Below are positions 5,553-48,161 of a stretch of DNA of 63,346 nucleotides, piece after piece. Location: assembly GCF_003885105.1 (NCBI RefSeq), contig NZ_QWZQ01000015.1, forward strand, positions 1 to 63,346, written 5' to 3'. The notes beneath the pieces are model-generated. The model ran no database searches, was not told the origin of the DNA, and worked only from the letters and a program-made list of their open reading frames with translations. The number at the start of each line of letters is the position of its first letter. Within the stretch, counting starts at the first letter, position 1. The DNA is from Lactiplantibacillus garii. Its GTDB lineage: Bacteria; Bacillota; Bacilli; Lactobacillales; Lactobacillaceae. Both the position numbers and the translations under genes were made by a program.

Positions 5553-5560
5553 ATTTTTGA

Positions 5561-5640
5561 TTGTGCCAAAAGTCGGTTAGCTGGTGATCGGAGCCCGCCG
5601 ACTTTTGGCGCACGTTTCGACAATAATTGTGCGGAAATAT
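5561..5640 (+). repeat. Composite intergenic repeat, copy R1 (short form)
   Basis: Starts GTGCCAAAAGTCGGTTAGC and ends near GTTTCGACAATAATTGTGCGGA. The arms GCCAAAAGTCGG and CCGACTTTTGGC are exactly complementary, so the unit folds. Related copies lie at 7817, 9260, 9638, 11035, 31140, 46939, 47089 and 61369. It sits between the pflA terminator and the terminator of the convergent gene. Confidence 0.8.
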
Positions 5641-6015: not shown

Positions 6016-6151
6016 CCTTACCGCCCCTTTTAAAAACGCTTTCATTAATTACTTCAATTATACTGGTTACCCGGTTAAATTCAATCCGTTTCCGGTAAAA
6101 TCCCACTCCCTCCGCGCGCTAAAATAAATTATAAAAAAGCAGTCTTTTAGG

Positions 6152-6180
6152 TTGCAAGCGTTTACAAAAGCTGGTAGTAT
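6152..6180 (+). promoter_or_regulatory. Promoter of the large ncRNA with overlapping cre
   Basis: TTGCAA (6152-6157), a 17-base spacer and TAGTAT (6175-6180) form a good sigma-A promoter. TGCAAGCGTTTACA at 6153-6166 matches the cre consensus TGWAANCGNTNWCA except for one base (C for W at position 3) and covers the -35 and upstream spacer, a placement expected for CcpA repression. Confidence 0.75.
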
Positions 6181-6186
6181 ACTAAG

Positions 6187-6796
6187 TGAGGAAAGGAAGT
6201 AATCCTCATTAGCAAAGCTTCTCAATGAGATTGGGTTGCCGTTGTAATGTTAGGCAACTAGTTCCACCGTTCGGGTCGTTATCGAAACCGTTTTGAGCGT
6301 TGAAGAACGTTATCGGTCCAATGAATGTCGCGAGACAGCGCACTGGATGACTGAACGTTAACCCTTGAATAAACGATGACCGCAACAGAATTAATTGGCA
6401 TTAGCACGACGATCAGGTTTTAACTTTTTAGTTGGAAACAGGTGTCACCAATGACCAGTTGAAAGTTCCACTAGTACCAGTTCCATTGTAGACTCAGGTT
6501 TTAAAAGTTTAAACGGAGGTGCGTGTCTGTTACGAAGACATTACCAAGTTTTAACCGCGAGCTCGACTTTCGTTAAAACCCGTCTAACGAGTCGCAATCA
6601 AGTATAGACTACTTTTGATCGACTAAAGCAGATAGATACAACAAATACGGGTTAGTCCGCTAGAAGTTGGACACGCGTAAAATTGAATAGCATGAAGGTG
6701 TAACGTATTAAGAACACTGAACATTTATTTCTTGCTAATCAGGATTATTCCTCATAAGTAGGACTCGAGTTGAGAAGCCTTGGGTCCTATTTTTTT
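6187..6796 (+). ncRNA. Large (~610 nt) structured non-coding RNA, possibly ROOL-class
   Basis: No plausible reading frame covers this interval. The ends pair over about 22 bp: 6187-6193 with 6748-6754, 6200-6206 with 6741-6747, and 6208-6215 with 6732-6739, leaving one 6-nt bulge. A further 9-bp pairing joins 6217-6225 (GCTTCTCAA) to 6770-6778 (TTGAGAAGC), which is the loop of the terminator hairpin, so a pseudoknot is likely. Inside are a GNRA hairpin (TGTC-GCGA-GACA, 6326-6337), GTTGCC/GGCAAC (6235-6258), GTTTTAAC/GTTAAAAC (6548-6579) and a long-range GCGTGTC/GACACGC pair (6521-6527 with 6670-6676). Size and ornate fold recall ROOL or GOLLD RNAs known from lactobacilli and rumen bacteria, but those are usually near prophages or tRNAs and I cannot confirm the class. 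Standard RNAs (tmRNA, RNase P, SRP, 6S) do not fit. Confidence 0.8.
6759..6796 (+). terminator. Terminator of the large ncRNA, loop engaged in long-range pairing
   Basis: Stem TAGGACTC (6759-6766) with GGGTCCTA (6782-6789), one G-U pair, then seven Ts. Its 15-base loop holds TTGAGAAGC, complementary to the 5' part of the same transcript at 6217-6225. Confidence 0.85.
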
Positions 6797-6806
6797 GCGC
6801 TCATGA

Positions 6807-6843
6807 TGCAATCGTTTACACTGACGCTTTGAAACCGTATACT
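6807..6843 (+). promoter_or_regulatory. Promoter and cre of the aldo/keto reductase gene
   Basis: TTTACA (6815-6820), 17-base spacer, TATACT (6838-6843). TGCAATCGTTTACA at 6807-6820 matches the cre consensus with one mismatch and overlaps the -35. The same mismatch (C at position 3) occurs in the cre of the neighbouring ncRNA. Confidence 0.75.
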
Positions 6844-7789: not shown

Positions 7790-7816
7790 CCAATAATTTA
7801 ATGACATCGTAAAAAA

Positions 7817-7965
7817 AGAGTGGACCAAAAGTCGCTTAGTTTGTGAGCATTAACGTGAAACCGGTGATTATTCCTAGGTTTGGAATGGTCACCGGTTTTG
7901 GGTTAAGCGGAACAAACTGACTTTTAGTGCACGTTTCGACACCATTGTCACGGAAACGTCAGTCG
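7817..7965 (+). repeat. Composite intergenic repeat, copy R2 (long form)
   Basis: Begins GAGTGGACCAAAAGTCGCTTAG and ends near TGCACGTTTCGACACCATTG. Between the arms lies a variable hairpin, AACCGGTGATTATTCC / GGAATGGTCACCGGTT, centred at about 7876. Closest relative is the inverted copy R8 at 47089-47216, which keeps the arms (GTTAAGCGGAACAAACTG) but has a different central stem. Confidence 0.75.
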
Positions 7966-11034: not shown

Positions 11035-11175
11035 ATCTCCGAACAATCATTGTCGAAACGTGCGTCAAAAGTCAGCTAGCTCCGCTTAACCACGTATGTC
11101 AAACAATCCAATCCCAGGATTATTCGCCATACGCCGTTAATGCTCACCCGCTAACCGGCTTTTGGCACACTCTGT
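11035..11175 (-). repeat. Composite intergenic repeat, copy R5 (long form, minus strand)
   Basis: Read on the minus strand it begins ACAGAGTGTGCCAAAAG, continues GGGTGAGCATTAACGG, has a central hairpin with AATAATCCTGGGATTGGATT, then GTTAAGCGGAGCTAGCTGAC and GCACGTTTCGACAATGATTG, and runs into the terminator at 10997-11034. Confidence 0.8.
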
Positions 11176-11197
11176 CATTTTTAAAAATTTTAATTGC

Positions 11198-12883
11198 TTA
11201 ATCCGTTTCCTGTGCCGATTTACGGGCCGCACGCCGTTCACGTGCGTAATCGGTATGGGTCGTGATCTCCACGTCCCGTGCCAACCGTTTCCGACGAGCC
11301 AATTCAGCAGCCTTGGCATTCGCCTTAGCAGCTTCCTTGACCGGATCAGTCGTTAAGTCGTGGTGAATTGAATACAGCAAGACTAACGCAACGATCGTCA
11401 ACGGAAAACCAGACATCGCACAAATGGACTGAATTGACTCAAAACCACCGACCGTTACTAACCCCAGTGAAAAGACGAGGAAAATAACGACCCAGCTCAT
11501 CCGGTTAAAACGACTTGGCTGTTGACCAGGTGCTAATTGCTTACTCGTAAACGATGACGTGATGAAGGCGAACGACGAAACCGTCGTAGCCAAGAACACG
11601 AAACACGATAAGCAGTACAGGGCTAGCATGATCATCTTCAACGGCAACGTTGATAAGACCGCCGCAATTACGGCCGCTTGTCCCTGCGTATTTAAGATGT
11701 GAACTAAGTTAACAACTCCCGTCCGTTGTAAGTAAAGGGCGTAACCACCCAGAACGGCGTAGAAGCTGACACAACCTAATGAACCCCATAACAACATGCC
11801 GCCTAGGACCTGCCGAATCGTCCGGCCCCGTGAAATGCGGGCAATGAATAATCCCATGACGGGCATGAATGATAACCACCAGCCCCAGTAAAAGATCGTT
11901 TGCCGTTGCATGGCCGTTGCATGACCGTTGGGCGCAGTGTTCGTACTTAAACTAACGAACTTGTTAATGAACAATCCAATACTGTTCGTTTCGGAGTTTA
12001 AAATGTACAGGGTCGGACCGACAACCAAGACTAATACTAAGAAACCAATGGCAAGCCAAATATGCGCGGAGCTCAGCCGACCGATTCCCTTTTTTAGTCC
12101 GTTGAAAACGGCCACGGCAAAAATCACGAATAGTAACGCAAATAAGGCCAACTTAAGTCCCATGCTATCCGCAATCCCGGTAGCAGCACTTAACACTTTA
12201 GAAATAACCGGAATTTCCATACCGACGGAAGTCCCGACGCCCCCCATGATCCCAATGATCACGAGGAGGTCGATGGTGTTACGGGCAACCCGCTTAGCGG
12301 TACCCGGTCCCTGTAAAACGGTGATAGCGGCACTTAACCGCTGAACTTTGACGTGCTTAACGTACATGGCGTAAGCGATGGCAATCGTCGCCGGCGCAAA
12401 CATCATCCACGCCATCGGGCCCCAATTGAACTGACCGAGCATGTGCGCGTAATTGTAGGCCGACGTTGAAAACGGCTTAACGCCGAATGAGGGGCTTTGC
12501 AGGTAACGTAACGGGTCAACGATACTTAGCATTAAGATACTGGCATCGATCCCCGTGGCGTAGACCATGCTGCCCCAGTGAAACGTTGAAAATTCGGGTT
12601 TGTCCTTAGGATCACCCAACTTGGTCTTACCAAGTTTGCTAAATCCTAAGTAAATGAAGAAAACAAAAGTAATCACGTATACTGACATGTACAACCAACT
12701 CATGTTGTTCGTTAACCAGTTTAAAATGCCACTTAAACTAGTTTCCAACGAATGACCACCCCTTAATAAAATAATGGATGCCACCGCAAAGAGCCCAATC
12801 GTTGGTAAGTAAACCCACCAATCAATATTCTTACTTTTTAAAATAATAAACCTGCTACTGAGTATATACTCTCTATATATCAA
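11198..12883 (-). CDS. BCCT-family transporter (betaine/carnitine/choline type)
   Basis: Sodium- or proton-coupled uptake or exchange of quaternary-ammonium compounds across the membrane. About 12 membrane segments; the family signature appears as FYWGWWLSFMPVMGLFIARISRGRTIR. In the segment where BetP has the Gly-rich GMGIG motif, this protein has TGIDASI (GSMVYATGIDASILML), marking a divergent subfamily, so betaine cannot be assumed. The start is unclear: the longest frame begins at TTG 12883, 14 nt after a GGGAG; the family alignment starts near LKSKNIDWW about 17 residues later, but no start codon with a ribosome binding site lies there. The long upstream region is structured. Confidence 0.85.
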   Translation of the reverse strand: MIYREYILSSRFIILKSKNIDWWVYLPTIGLFAVASIILLRGGHSLETSLSGILNWLTNNMSWLYMSVYVITFVFFIYLGFSKLGKTKLGDPKDKPEFSTFHWGSMVYATGIDASILMLSIVDPLRYLQSPSFGVKPFSTSAYNYAHMLGQFNWGPMAWMMFAPATIAIAYAMYVKHVKVQRLSAAITVLQGPGTAKRVARNTIDLLVIIGIMGGVGTSVGMEIPVISKVLSAATGIADSMGLKLALFALLFVIFAVAVFNGLKKGIGRLSSAHIWLAIGFLVLVLVVGPTLYILNSETNSIGLFINKFVSLSTNTAPNGHATAMQRQTIFYWGWWLSFMPVMGLFIARISRGRTIRQVLGGMLLWGSLGCVSFYAVLGGYALYLQRTGVVNLVHILNTQGQAAVIAAVLSTLPLKMIMLALYCLSCFVFLATTVSSFAFITSSFTSKQLAPGQQPSRFNRMSWVVIFLVFSLGLVTVGGFESIQSICAMSGFPLTIVALVLLYSIHHDLTTDPVKEAAKANAKAAELARRKRLARDVEITTHTDYARERRAARKSAQETD

Positions 12884-15774: not shown

Positions 15775-17451
15775 TTAATCCTGAATTTCAACCGGCATGA
15801 AGTCAAAGGAATCGTAGTCAAATAATCCCCGGGCCGTCAACTTTAGCGTTGGAATGACCGGCAACGTTAAGAACGACAACGTAATGAACGGATCAAACTT
15901 AATCGGTGGCTCACAAATTTGATTATAGGCCGCCTTGATCGTTGCGAGCTGTTCAGCCGCCCGCGTGTAAGTTTCCGCCGATAAAAGCCCGCCGACCGCT
16001 AACGGCATGTTGGCGATGATTTGTTGATCATCACTGACCGCGATACCGCCGTTAGTCCGGGTGATTTGTTCAACGGCCCGTAAAATTGCCAAATCCGACG
16101 TGCCAACCGCCACGATGTTGTGAGCGTCGTGGGCAATCGTACCGGCCACCGCACCGTGCTTTAATTGAAAGCCGTGAACCAGGCCGACCCCCACCTTACC
16201 CGTATTTTTATGGCGTTCGATCACGACCATCTTGAGAACGTCCTGGTCAACGTCGGCTTCAAAGTTCACTCCCGGCGTCACTGTTTTAACGAGGTGGTCG
16301 GTTTCAATGTGGTTGGGCTGGACCCCAATCACGTTCACCTTGCCATTAGTTAGCGGTAATTTTAAATCATCTAGGGTGGCGTGTTGCCGTACCCGGGTCG
16401 CCGTAAACGCTAGCGGCTTCGTAGGTTGATCCGCCGGTACCCACCGGCCGTTTTTCATCGTTTTAGCTACCGTTACTTGCCGGGGGTCGTCCAAAACGAC
16501 CAGGTCGGCTAATTTGCCCGCCGTTAAACTACCACGGTCCGTCAAGCGGTGCGCATGGGCCGCGTTCAGGCTCGCCAGCGTGTACGCCAGGGCCGGTCGC
16601 ATTCCGTTTTGAATGGCTAACCGTACGTTGTAGTCGATCGAGCCCTCGGTCATAAGATCACTGATCGTTTTATCGTCGGTACAAAACGCAAAGCGACTAG
16701 CATTGGCTTCGGTGACCGCCCCCATTGTCGCCAGAACGTCCCGTTCAACCGTGCCTTCCCGCAAGAAAACGGTCATGCCCGCCTTCACCCGGTCCAGGGC
16801 CTCCGTCACGGTCGTACACTCGTGGTCGGTATCCAACCCGGCGTTGACCATCACGTTTAGTTGGTGCGAATTCAGCCCGGCCGCGTGACCATCCGCGTGG
16901 TACCCGTGGGCGTAGGCGTCCCGAATTTTTGCCGTAATGTCCTCGTCACCGCGTTCCACCGCACCGTAATCCATGACCTCCGCTAAACCGTGAACTTCCG
17001 GTTGCGCATACAGGGGCCGTAAATCGGCCGCGTGGAGGGTCGCCCCGTTATCGTCAAACGGCACGCACGGTACCGAGGACGGTAGCATGAAAAAAACGTC
17101 TAGCGGGGTCTGGCGGGCATCGTCAATCAGATATTGAATTCCCGCTACCCCAGCCACGTTCGCCAGTTCGTGCGGGTCAGTCGCAATGGCCGTAACCCCG
17201 TGCTTTAATAGTACTTTGCCGAGTTCACTCGGCGCCACCATCGAACTCTCCATGTGCACGTGCGCGTCGATCATGCCGGGGACGATCCACTGATCACTTG
17301 CGTCCACCGTTTCCCGTGCTTGGTAGGGCTCATCCTTTAAATTACTAACAATGTGCCCGTCTTTGATCCACAAACTAGTTGCGTCAAATTCACGGGTAAA
17401 AACGTTTAAGACCTGAGCGCCGGTAATCACCATATCAACTGTTTTTAACAC
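15775..17451 (-). CDS. ade: Adenine deaminase
   Basis: Amidohydrolase-superfamily enzyme (558 residues) that deaminates adenine to hypoxanthine for salvage. Metal-binding landmarks: DAHVHMESS near the start of the barrel, GHAAGL, and the C-terminal domain with HDAHNIVAVG and the GGIAV stretch typical of bacterial adenine deaminases. A longer frame begins at 17529, but the likely start is GTG at 17451, which has AAGGAG 7 nt before it; the extra region holds the terminator of a purine riboswitch. The guanine-class switch suggests expression falls when guanine or hypoxanthine is plentiful. Confidence 0.95.
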   Translation of the reverse strand: MLKTVDMVITGAQVLNVFTREFDATSLWIKDGHIVSNLKDEPYQARETVDASDQWIVPGMIDAHVHMESSMVAPSELGKVLLKHGVTAIATDPHELANVAGVAGIQYLIDDARQTPLDVFFMLPSSVPCVPFDDNGATLHAADLRPLYAQPEVHGLAEVMDYGAVERGDEDITAKIRDAYAHGYHADGHAAGLNSHQLNVMVNAGLDTDHECTTVTEALDRVKAGMTVFLREGTVERDVLATMGAVTEANASRFAFCTDDKTISDLMTEGSIDYNVRLAIQNGMRPALAYTLASLNAAHAHRLTDRGSLTAGKLADLVVLDDPRQVTVAKTMKNGRWVPADQPTKPLAFTATRVRQHATLDDLKLPLTNGKVNVIGVQPNHIETDHLVKTVTPGVNFEADVDQDVLKMVVIERHKNTGKVGVGLVHGFQLKHGAVAGTIAHDAHNIVAVGTSDLAILRAVEQITRTNGGIAVSDDQQIIANMPLAVGGLLSAETYTRAAEQLATIKAAYNQICEPPIKFDPFITLSFLTLPVIPTLKLTARGLFDYDSFDFMPVEIQD

Positions 17452-17484
17452 AATTTTTCTCCTTCTGCCTATCGGAGAAAGCAA

Positions 17485-17521
17485 ACGGGCCCGTACGGCA
17501 AAAAGAGCTGTACGGACCCGT
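17485..17521 (-). terminator. Expression-platform terminator of the purine riboswitch
   Basis: Perfectly matched arms GTACGGGCCCGT / ACGGACCCGTAC-type (one G-U) enclosing a 13-base loop, followed on the minus strand by TTTGCTTTCT, between the aptamer and the ade ribosome binding site. The T-run is interrupted. Confidence 0.7.
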
Positions 17522-17532
17522 CGACTCAATTC

Positions 17533-17597
17533 GCTTATAGTCCAACATTTACGGTGTTGGGTAGAAACTCGCCATCCTTATCATGGCATTATATAGG
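17533..17597 (-). promoter_or_regulatory. Purine riboswitch aptamer, guanine (C74) class
   Basis: On the minus strand the conserved core reads TATAAT ... GGCGAGTTTCTACC ... CCGTAAAT ... GGACTATAAG, with the P2 and P3 stems (GCCAT/ATGGC and CAACA/TGTTG). The base before TATAAG in the 3' junction is C, the guanine/hypoxanthine-binding type, not the U of adenine-binding aptamers. Confidence 0.93.
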
Positions 17598-17769
17598 CAA
17601 TTTGTTTTGGTTTTAAGTTGTCGCTTACCTTAACAGAATTTTTTTAGAAAAGCAAGAACCGGCCAGATAATATTTCCGTCAATTTGGTTCTCAGCGCCCC
17701 TAGTTTGGGCTAAAATTGAACTATGGTATTAACGATAAATTTATTAATTAAACTTAGGAGTTGAGTCCA

Positions 17770-31066: not shown

Positions 31067-31139
31067 CAACACCACCCCCATCGATTTATCATCATTATAC
31101 TGCAAGCGCTGTCAAAAACAAACGCTGCCTAGATAGAAA

Positions 31140-31221
31140 CAGAGTGTGCCAAAAGTCGGTTAGCCGGTAAGCGGCGCCCGCTGACTTTCAGCGCACGTTT
31201 CGACAATGATTATGCGGAGAC
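31140..31221 (+). repeat. Composite intergenic repeat, copy R6 (short form)
   Basis: CAGAGTGTGCCAAAAGTCGG left edge, GCCCGCTGACTTTCAGCGCAC and GTTTCGACAATGATTATGCGG right part, running directly into the terminator at 31222. Confidence 0.8.
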
Positions 31222-47088: not shown

Positions 47089-47216
47089 AGTGCCGAAACG
47101 TGCGCCAAATGCCAGTTTGTTCCGCTTAACAAAAATTAACCGATTATTCCAAAACCAGGAATAATCGGTTAATTTACGTTATGCTCGCAAACTGAGCGGC
47201 TTTTGTCCCACTCTCC
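47089..47216 (-). repeat. Composite intergenic repeat, copy R8 (long form, inverted)
   Basis: Minus-strand reading begins GAGTGGGACAAAAGCCGC, continues TTGCGAGCATAACG, a central AATTAACCGATTATTCC / GGAATAATCGGTTAATT hairpin, then TTAAGCGGAACAAACTG and GCGCACGTTTCGGCA. The terminator function for both convergent genes is probably carried by the internal stems; the 47037-47088 spacer also has AGACAA/TTGTCT pairing. Confidence 0.8.
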
Positions 47217-47222
47217 TTTAAG

Positions 47223-48161
47223 TCATTGTAAATATTGCGCCATGAACGCCGCCACTTTCTGCTCGTACAATTTAGGGTGCAAGGTAAACGACTCGGCGTG
47301 GGCCGCGCCCGGCACAACCCAGAGTTGTTTATCCTTAACGCTAGTTGCACGGTAGTTTTCGTAAACCATCTTAGTTGGGACAAAGGTGTCACTTCCACCG
47401 TGAATAAAGAAAATTGGTAATTTATTCTTCTTCAACTGCTCAACCGAACTGGCGTGTAGGAAATTAAAGTGGGCCTTAGCGTCCGCCACCCAGCTTGCCG
47501 TGTATAACAGCGGAAACTTCGGTAGGTGGTACAGTTGCTTTAACTCGTACCCTAACTCATCACTGACACTGGTGTAACCACAATCTTCCACGATGGCCTT
47601 GACCTGGGTGGGTAGACGCTCCCCACTCATCATCATCACGGTCGCGCCACCCATTGACACCCCAAACAACCCAATTTGGCTGCTGGTCCCGTTACGCCGA
47701 ATGATTTGCTTAGTCCACTTAACGTAGTCCAAGCGGTCCGGCCAACCAAAACCGTAATAGTTCCCCTGGCTTTGACCATTACCACGATCGTCCGGTGCTA
47801 ACACGTTGTAACCCTGGCGGTGCCACAAACGGATGTAACTTGCCATTTGTTCTTTATTTCCCATGTAACCGTGCGCTACCACGATCGTTTTAGTCGTTTT
47901 ATGGGCGGCCGGCACGTAATCCGCCACCAGCTTTAAATTGTCGGTCGCGGAAGTTTCGTGCCACGTCTGCTTACTGACCCGTTTTAACCAAGCCTGGTTC
48001 GTCTTTAACGTACTGTGGTTCTTCTTGGAACTATGGTTCAATACTTTGGGCGTCGGCTCAAACGCAAAGTGGTATAAATAAAAACTGCCACCGGCGACAC
48101 CAATAACGATGACCGTTAACAGCGTAATCAGCGCAATGCCCCATTTTTTGCGGGTCGTCAT
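47223..48161 (-). CDS. Alpha/beta hydrolase with N-terminal membrane anchor
   Basis: 312 residues. One N-terminal membrane segment (residues ~8-30), then an extracellular-type alpha/beta hydrolase: VVAHGYMGNKEQM (oxyanion region), DDRGNGQSQG, nucleophile elbow GVSMGG, Asp in GGSDTFVP and His in GAAHAES. Resembles the YqkD-like lipase/esterases of Firmicutes. Substrate unknown. Start ATG 48161 follows GAGGAATTG. Convergent with the MFS gene. Confidence 0.87.
   Translation of the reverse strand: MTTRKKWGIALITLLTVIVIGVAGGSFYLYHFAFEPTPKVLNHSSKKNHSTLKTNQAWLKRVSKQTWHETSATDNLKLVADYVPAAHKTTKTIVVAHGYMGNKEQMASYIRLWHRQGYNVLAPDDRGNGQSQGNYYGFGWPDRLDYVKWTKQIIRRNGTSSQIGLFGVSMGGATVMMMSGERLPTQVKAIVEDCGYTSVSDELGYELKQLYHLPKFPLLYTASWVADAKAHFNFLHASSVEQLKKNKLPIFFIHGGSDTFVPTKMVYENYRATSVKDKQLWVVPGAAHAESFTLHPKLYEQKVAAFMAQYLQ

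Follow-up and report, generated by a model that had tools for sequence, protein, structure and literature searches.

Few large structured RNAs are known in bacteria, and the role of most of them is open. Among them is ROOL, an elaborate non-coding RNA of ~500–600 nt; the ROOL section of PMC12286853 cites an lncRNA of L. salivarius (Cousin et al. 2017), which in the portion of PMC5643018 used here is 520 nt long and located on a megaplasmid. GOLLD is also large, and the excerpted text of PMC12286853 describes its 3' region as conserved, its 5' region as less so, and both ROOL and GOLLD as self-assembling. OLE RNA and the raiA motif RNA are further large structured bacterial RNAs. The 6S RNA of lactic acid bacteria carries a promoter cre site in about one-third of the species studied (sections of PMC8414754 used here). 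L. plantarum supermotifs (LPSMs) are 800–1000-nt multi-copy intergenic elements that the available part of PMC5643018 reports as absent from other species.

Within the window, by which we mean the whole 63,346-nt stretch of Lactiplantibacillus garii DNA analysed, a unit of ~610 nt has the appearance of a non-coding gene standing on its own, with a cre box, an extended −10 element, clasped ends and an intrinsic terminator. Like ROOL it is long, elaborate and non-coding, but it has no Rfam match and no adjoining phage or tRNA gene, and its CcpA-type promoter and lineage-specific tandem modules are features of its own. With GOLLD it shares large size, a conserved 3' region and a less conserved 5' region (the comparison being with the partial text of PMC12286853), whereas it has no Rfam match and was not found in phage collections with the queries used. 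Like OLE and raiA it is a large structured RNA, but one with no Rfam match and no fixed neighbouring partner gene across genera. To our knowledge no cre promoter is known in GOLLD; 6S RNA is likewise non-coding with a promoter cre site, but at ~200 nt it is far shorter than the present RNA, which has no Rfam match.

Rfam 15 gives no match at the RNA locus at the gathering score, and a cmscan to E 10 returns only two miRNA models there (E 4.3 and 6.2). The initial annotation had proposed a comparison with Rfam models, and ROOL, GOLLD, OLE and all other families are without a match at the RNA; the ROOL and GOLLD covariance models are equally unmatched in the relatives' loci searched. The Rfam library includes a 6S model, which gave no match up to E 10 to this 610-nt RNA. 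Among 20 loci of relatives, only a 16S fragment and two tRNAs reached the gathering score, all away from the RNA, and eight such loci gave no match up to E 0.5. The literature searched held no paper that we recognised as a description of the RNA, although an earlier account may exist, for instance in supplementary material; the words Lactobacill and Pediococcus are absent from the main text of RNA discovery surveys of 50 and 26 genomes.

The predicted RNA gene and its promoter

The initial annotation had described a giant structured non-coding RNA with a CcpA-type promoter, a gene-free unit of ~610 nt with its own promoter (6152–6180) and terminator and with no adjoining phage or tRNA gene. 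Sequence evidence supports this description, and the features are collected in Table 1. The cre box, called against the cre consensus, lies over the −35 element: TTGCAA (6152–6157) is separated by a 17-nt spacer from TAGTAT (6175–6180), with TG at 6172–6173 completing the extended −10. The terminator, which is missing from the output of a simple terminator scan, consists of a stem with 11-nt strands followed by seven T, read directly from the sequence. No ORF of at least 60 aa is found within 6187–6796 on either strand and no tRNA gene within the window, and the four nearest genes, encoding pyruvate formate-lyase (PFL), PFL activase, an Fe-S assembly (DUF59-type) protein and an aldo/keto reductase, are not phage genes.

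Table 1. Features of the candidate RNA gene, in window coordinates
Feature	Position	Strand	Remarks
ncRNA gene	6187–6796	+	~610 nt; start inferred from promoter
cre box TTGCAAGCGTTTACA	6152–6166	+	left half TTGCAA is the −35 element; equivalent position in relatives
Extended −10, TGg TAGTAT	6172–6180	+	TG at 6172–6173
Closing helix P1, 5' strand	6186–6193	+	pairs with 6748–6755
Second end helix, 5' strand	6199–6213	+	with 6734–6748
Clasp strand GCTTCTCAA	6217–6225	+	complementary to terminator loop
5' module (limits approximate)	6234–6399	+	single copy here, tandem array of four in genome G287
Internal motif GGTGTCACCAATGAC	6441–6455	+	pattern GGTG[TA]nnCCnATGAC in relatives
GGAGGTG motif	6515–6521	+	within predicted helix
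Conserved 3' core (TACGGGTTAGTCCG...AATTGAATAGCATGAAGGTGT...TTAAGAAC)	6646–6716	+	basis of models R1 and R2
Second end helix, 3' strand	6734–6748	+	with 6199–6213
Closing helix P1, 3' strand	6748–6755	+	pairs with 6186–6193
Intrinsic terminator	6759–6796	+	stem 6759–6769 with 6779–6789; T run 6790–6796
Terminator loop TTGAGAAGC	6770–6778	+	complementary to clasp strand

A short frame after GGAGGTG was considered as coding and rejected because the Lactiplantibacillus alignment shows its start codon to be variable or missing. The shorter GGAGGT occurs in 46 of 62 family members but sits in predicted helices, and we claim no ribosome-binding role for it. On the minus strand, a promoter-like site (TTGCAA-18-TATAAT, 6128–6157) makes use of the same cre box and faces the DUF59-type gene; CcpA may therefore control both divergent units, the RNA and the DUF59-type gene.

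Paired ends and covariation in Lactiplantibacillus

The minimum-energy fold of the RNA has a z of −3.4, and 0/20 shuffles reach an energy as low. In this single-sequence fold 22 pairs join the 5' and 3' ends, in the order TGAGGA/TCCTCA, GTAATCCT/AGGATTAT and then the ATTAGC region with GCTAAT. The ~22-bp end pairing claimed in the initial annotation therefore stands in the minimum-energy fold, but the alignment consensus keeps only the outer 8 pairs and TTAGC/GCTAA and loses part of the middle, which partly pairs locally (columns 9–11 with 20–22). In the second end helix, the inner TTAGC part belongs to the consensus and the outer part comes from the single-sequence fold only. A 9-bp pairing of the 5' region with the terminator loop had also been proposed, and a 9-nt match lies exactly at 6217–6225 and 6770–6778.

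All 21 Lactiplantibacillus genomes carry the RNA, at one locus each (E ≤ 0.001); 18 of the loci give a single match and three (G071, G227 and G287) give pieces of one locus. Identity across near-full-length matches is 76–92%. The aldo/keto reductase gene is located 3' of the RNA in 19 of the 21 loci, and an upstream pflA and/or DUF59 gene is visible in 11, some of the loci being truncated. The internal motif GGTG[TA]nnCCnATGAC is present in 15/21 Lactiplantibacillus and 10/14 Pediococcus members.

A consensus fold was derived from 20 aligned Lactiplantibacillus sequences, excluding L023 with its four modules (alignment A2); alignment A1 omits L019, L012 and the near-duplicates L005, L010, L015 and L024. 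The consensus comprises 131 pairs, with standard pairs in 98.2% of cells compared with 96.4% in shuffles. Both-sided changes occur in 17 of the 131 pairs against 9.7±1.8 in shuffles (0/500 as high), a comparison to be read with the caveat that kinship alone, without structure, can push sequences past such shuffles; cross-genus tests therefore weigh more. Sliding the partners by 1–3 columns reduces the count of both-sided changes to 1–6. The number of further pair types is no higher than in shuffles (326/500 as high), and P1 is invariant within the genus.

Distribution and cross-genus tests in the Lactobacillaceae

R1, a covariance model covering the 3'-terminal 150 nt and built from 19 sequences, matches 49 of 397 Lactobacillaceae genomes in 8 of 40 genera (E ≤ 0.01). 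A second 3'-end model, R2, from 37 matches, with three matches of E > 1 excluded by a stricter cut-off, matches 62 of the 397 genomes in 11 of the 40 genera (E ≤ 0.003). One of these genera, g12, depends on a single genome (G370) that has neither the promoter nor a 5' partner, and by sequence comparison the family spans at least ten genera; matched genera include Lactiplantibacillus, Pediococcus, Loigolactobacillus, Secundilactobacillus and Paucilactobacillus. An order-wide search matched 15 of 395 genomes, 14 of them Lactobacillaceae; the other (G475, E 0.007) looks coding, lacks such an RNA upstream and was rejected as a false positive. Three pattern matches (L112, L113 and L118) were also set aside, having no such RNA by eye and no R1 match. 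Compact relatives occur on mobilizable plasmids of L. plantarum and L. brevis, and a plasmid search with a Pediococcus member as query gave no match. One compact RNA, on a plasmid of L. plantarum (L028, 2635–3125), lies directly 5' of an Hsp20 gene.

Of 16 representatives across genera, 14 have a lower fold energy than any of their 40 dinucleotide shuffles, the exceptions being L080 (1/40 shuffles as low) and L120 (3/40). The flanking genes vary from genus to genus. Among 20 representative loci (ORFs called mechanically, with Pfam for some), the first downstream ORF differs by genus and has the opposite orientation in 8; within Secundilactobacillus and within g22, loci can share one downstream gene on the same strand.

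As R1 is built on the 3' end, the 5' end provides a largely independent test. A cre box lies within 1100 nt upstream in 35 of 36 divergent R1 matches, compared with 2/1800 in a mononucleotide-shuffled control, figures for which the cre pattern was defined after the first boxes had been seen and in which two of the 36 matches (L091 and L099) are the same loci as rows in the R1 alignment. In L068 the −10 and the 5' strand are kept and the cre box is not recognisable; it is also unrecognisable or decayed in L141, L142 and L189, and the strict pattern misses 4 of the 21 Lactiplantibacillus boxes. Ten new matches were contributed by R2, four of them near-identical at the 3' end and therefore not independent. 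With L184 left out, being identical or nearly so to L182 at the 3' end, eight of the nine traced fully have the promoter and a pairing 5' strand; among these eight the cre box is strict in three, has one mismatch in four and is not recognisable in L189.

The end pairing was compared in a 62-member set (21 Lactiplantibacillus, 35 divergent members, 1 from a plasmid, L100, 2 Levilactobacillus and 2 Limosilactobacillus-type). The 5'/3' end duplex averages −20.1 kcal/mol and has z < −3 relative to shuffled 3' ends in 41 of the 62; the share of other-genus 3' ends that fit a member's 5' end equally well has a median of 0% and a mean of 13%. Own ends pair markedly better than foreign ones in Pediococcus, Loigolactobacillus, g15, g22 and Levilactobacillus; in Lactiplantibacillus the difference is small (−16.5 kcal/mol for own against −14.9 for foreign ends). 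The closing helix is altered yet still paired in several variants: GAGGAAAG/CUUUCCUC, UGGAAAG/CUUUCCA and UAAAGAGG/CCUCUUUA.

In 48 of the 62 members the 5' region contains a 6–10-nt complement of the terminator loop. Loigolactobacillus shows a compensated change here (CUCCUC/GAGGAG in place of CUUCUC/GAGAAG); in Secundilactobacillus and Paucilactobacillus the clasp is 6 nt, only ~1.3–1.4 sd above shuffles. It is missing in 14: all 10 members of g15, the two Levilactobacillus and the two Limosilactobacillus-type. The search for orthologous loci and for covariation suggested in the initial annotation has thus turned up the former in all 21 Lactiplantibacillus genomes and, by covariance model, in more genera, and the latter both in the both-sided pair changes within the genus and in the compensated closing-helix and clasp pairs across genera.

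The Levilactobacillus and Limosilactobacillus-type candidates came from a cre-pattern search, and their cre box is therefore no evidence. Their membership in the family is unproven because R2 matches neither group and the Levilactobacillus fold (L120, z −1.5) is not unusually stable; all four (L104, L107, L120 and L127) are retained as candidates only. In two Levilactobacillus species the candidate is a 593-nt cre-driven unit with strongly paired ends (L120, 3417–4009; L127, 2684–3276). A 286-nt cre-driven RNA candidate is found in Limosilactobacillus caviae and Lactobacillus sp. 0.1XD8-4 (L107, 1935–2220, fold z −6.9; L104, 5573–5858, minus strand); it has no Rfam match at the RNA, has a tRNA ~430 nt off in L104, and is perhaps another RNA family.

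We consider it very probable that this is a real, free-standing family of structured non-coding RNAs; the gene, its paired ends, the family and the conserved cre promoter are supported by the comparisons above.

Tandem modules directly follow the clasp strand in two genera, Lactiplantibacillus and Loigolactobacillus. In Lactiplantibacillus, G287 has four copies of a 174-nt module; in Loigolactobacillus the module is 69 nt in 5.7 copies (L085), 111 nt in four copies (L068) or ~66 nt in about three to four copies (L069). Diverged repeats lie further inside the RNA in three Pediococcus members, in one of which (L066) Tandem Repeats Finder reported no repeat. The 19 module copies of six Loigolactobacillus members (1, 4, 2, 2, 6 and 4) fit an H-type pseudoknot, its second strand having been selected for best pairing. 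Two positions of stem 2 alternate between C-G and T-A (11 and 8 copies; 8 and 11), and mismatches comprise an A-C at one position in 8/19 copies and a C-A at one stem-1 position in 2/19. Variable copy number of this kind is what would be expected of a multivalent platform or decoy.

Proposed function and alternative explanations

A cre box at the promoter, as expected of the CcpA regulon, is present both at this locus and in all but one of 36 divergent relatives. According to the part of PMC8414754 used here, cre sites that overlap a promoter mediate repression in B. subtilis, and the 6S RNA of L. lactis is ~threefold up in a CcpA-deficient mutant. With the box lying over the −35 element and spacer, CcpA repression on glucose is implied, and we regard it as highly likely; the RNA is therefore expected once the preferred sugar is gone. 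We infer that the RNA is transcribed and stable and that CcpA binds its promoter.

Our preferred reading, which we hold to be likely as a whole, is that large structured RNAs of this kind form an uncatalogued class which CcpA represses on glucose and which serves, under sugar limitation, as a stable trans-acting scaffold or multivalent decoy. While glucose is present, CcpA would occupy the cre box across the −35 element and spacer and keep the gene off; when the preferred sugar is exhausted, the gene would fire. In the folded transcript (~400–1100 nt in the family, 610 nt here) the 5' end would be paired with the 3' end and the 5' region would hold the terminator loop, an arrangement expected to shield both ends from exonucleases and yield a long-lived RNA. 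The conserved 3' core would be the trans-acting scaffold or binding platform, the 5' modules, amplified in tandem, would present repeated binding sites, and the RNA would probably hold or sequester a protein, a ribosome or another RNA during sugar limitation. Conservation of the 3' core together with amplification of the modules suggests a partner-binding platform or self-assembly; the scaffold or decoy role taken separately is tentative. A further, more speculative version envisages an ornate RNA particle, made on sugar depletion, that is clasped and long-lived, may self-assemble in the manner of ROOL and GOLLD, and has its number of capture modules (1–6) tuned by tandem duplication.

The RNA is chromosomal, is found in all 21 Lactiplantibacillus genomes analysed and also in Pediococcus and other easily grown, modifiable bacteria, and its conserved promoter points to a condition under which to seek it; the role of a giant RNA for the cell rather than for a phage is therefore directly testable.

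The best surviving alternative is a CcpA-controlled antisense regulator whose large fold merely displays mRNA-pairing loops. A CcpA-type promoter and variable modules would suit such a regulator, and the L. garii genome does hold one 18-nt perfect complement of the RNA, at the end of one ORF and the start of the next, but a complement of this length is at chance level (E 0.13) and the longest conserved stretches are spread over the folded 3' core rather than forming a single open seed; we think this explanation unlikely.

That the RNA is an already described L. plantarum supermotif is very improbable. LPSMs, known here by second-hand description, are also large, structured, intergenic and from the same genus (excerpt of PMC5643018), but that description gives them as many-copy elements of one species, whereas the present RNA occupies one locus per genome and spans at least ten genera, with neither the multiple copies nor the 800–1000-nt length of LPSMs.

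Even more doubtful is a divergent ROOL or GOLLD RNA settled outside phages. Comparable size and an elaborate fold, some plasmid-borne copies and a conserved 3' end with a variable 5' end, as the text excerpted from PMC12286853 describes for GOLLD, would fit; the Rfam searches at the locus and in eight relatives' loci described above argue against it. The ROOL-type setting of phage, prophage or tRNA island is not found among the four nearest genes or in the tRNA search of the window. Phage records searched with two members as queries yielded nothing that held up, and the one 40-nt phage match inspected falls inside a coding gene. In viral contigs the 5' pattern gave no match, and 21 stretches matching the 3' pattern were rejected, R2 giving none below E 0.39.

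Least probable is that the unit forms an extended leader or a riboswitch belonging to the aldo/keto reductase gene. That gene lies on the same strand, begins 72 nt beyond the RNA end and comes next after the RNA in 19 of 21 Lactiplantibacillus loci, but a terminator closes the unit, the next ORF varies, being unrelated in other genera and on the opposite strand in 8/20 loci, and the reductase has a cre-like box and promoter-like site of its own (6807–6843), right after the RNA terminator.

Two other intergenic elements were observed in the window. A multi-copy palindromic repeat with a tail resembling GYGCACGTTTCGACA is present in five copies (at most 2 mismatches; chance mean 0.09), at 5560–5625, 7815–7945, 11051–11200 (minus strand), 31120–31210 and 47091–47250 (minus strand), so that one copy flanks the RNA gene on either side; its tail has 16 exact copies in the genome, compared with 0 for a reversed-pattern control. 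At 17518–17616 on the minus strand, a purine riboswitch (70.8 bits) adjoins an ORF (15775–17529) that by eye resembles adenine deaminase.
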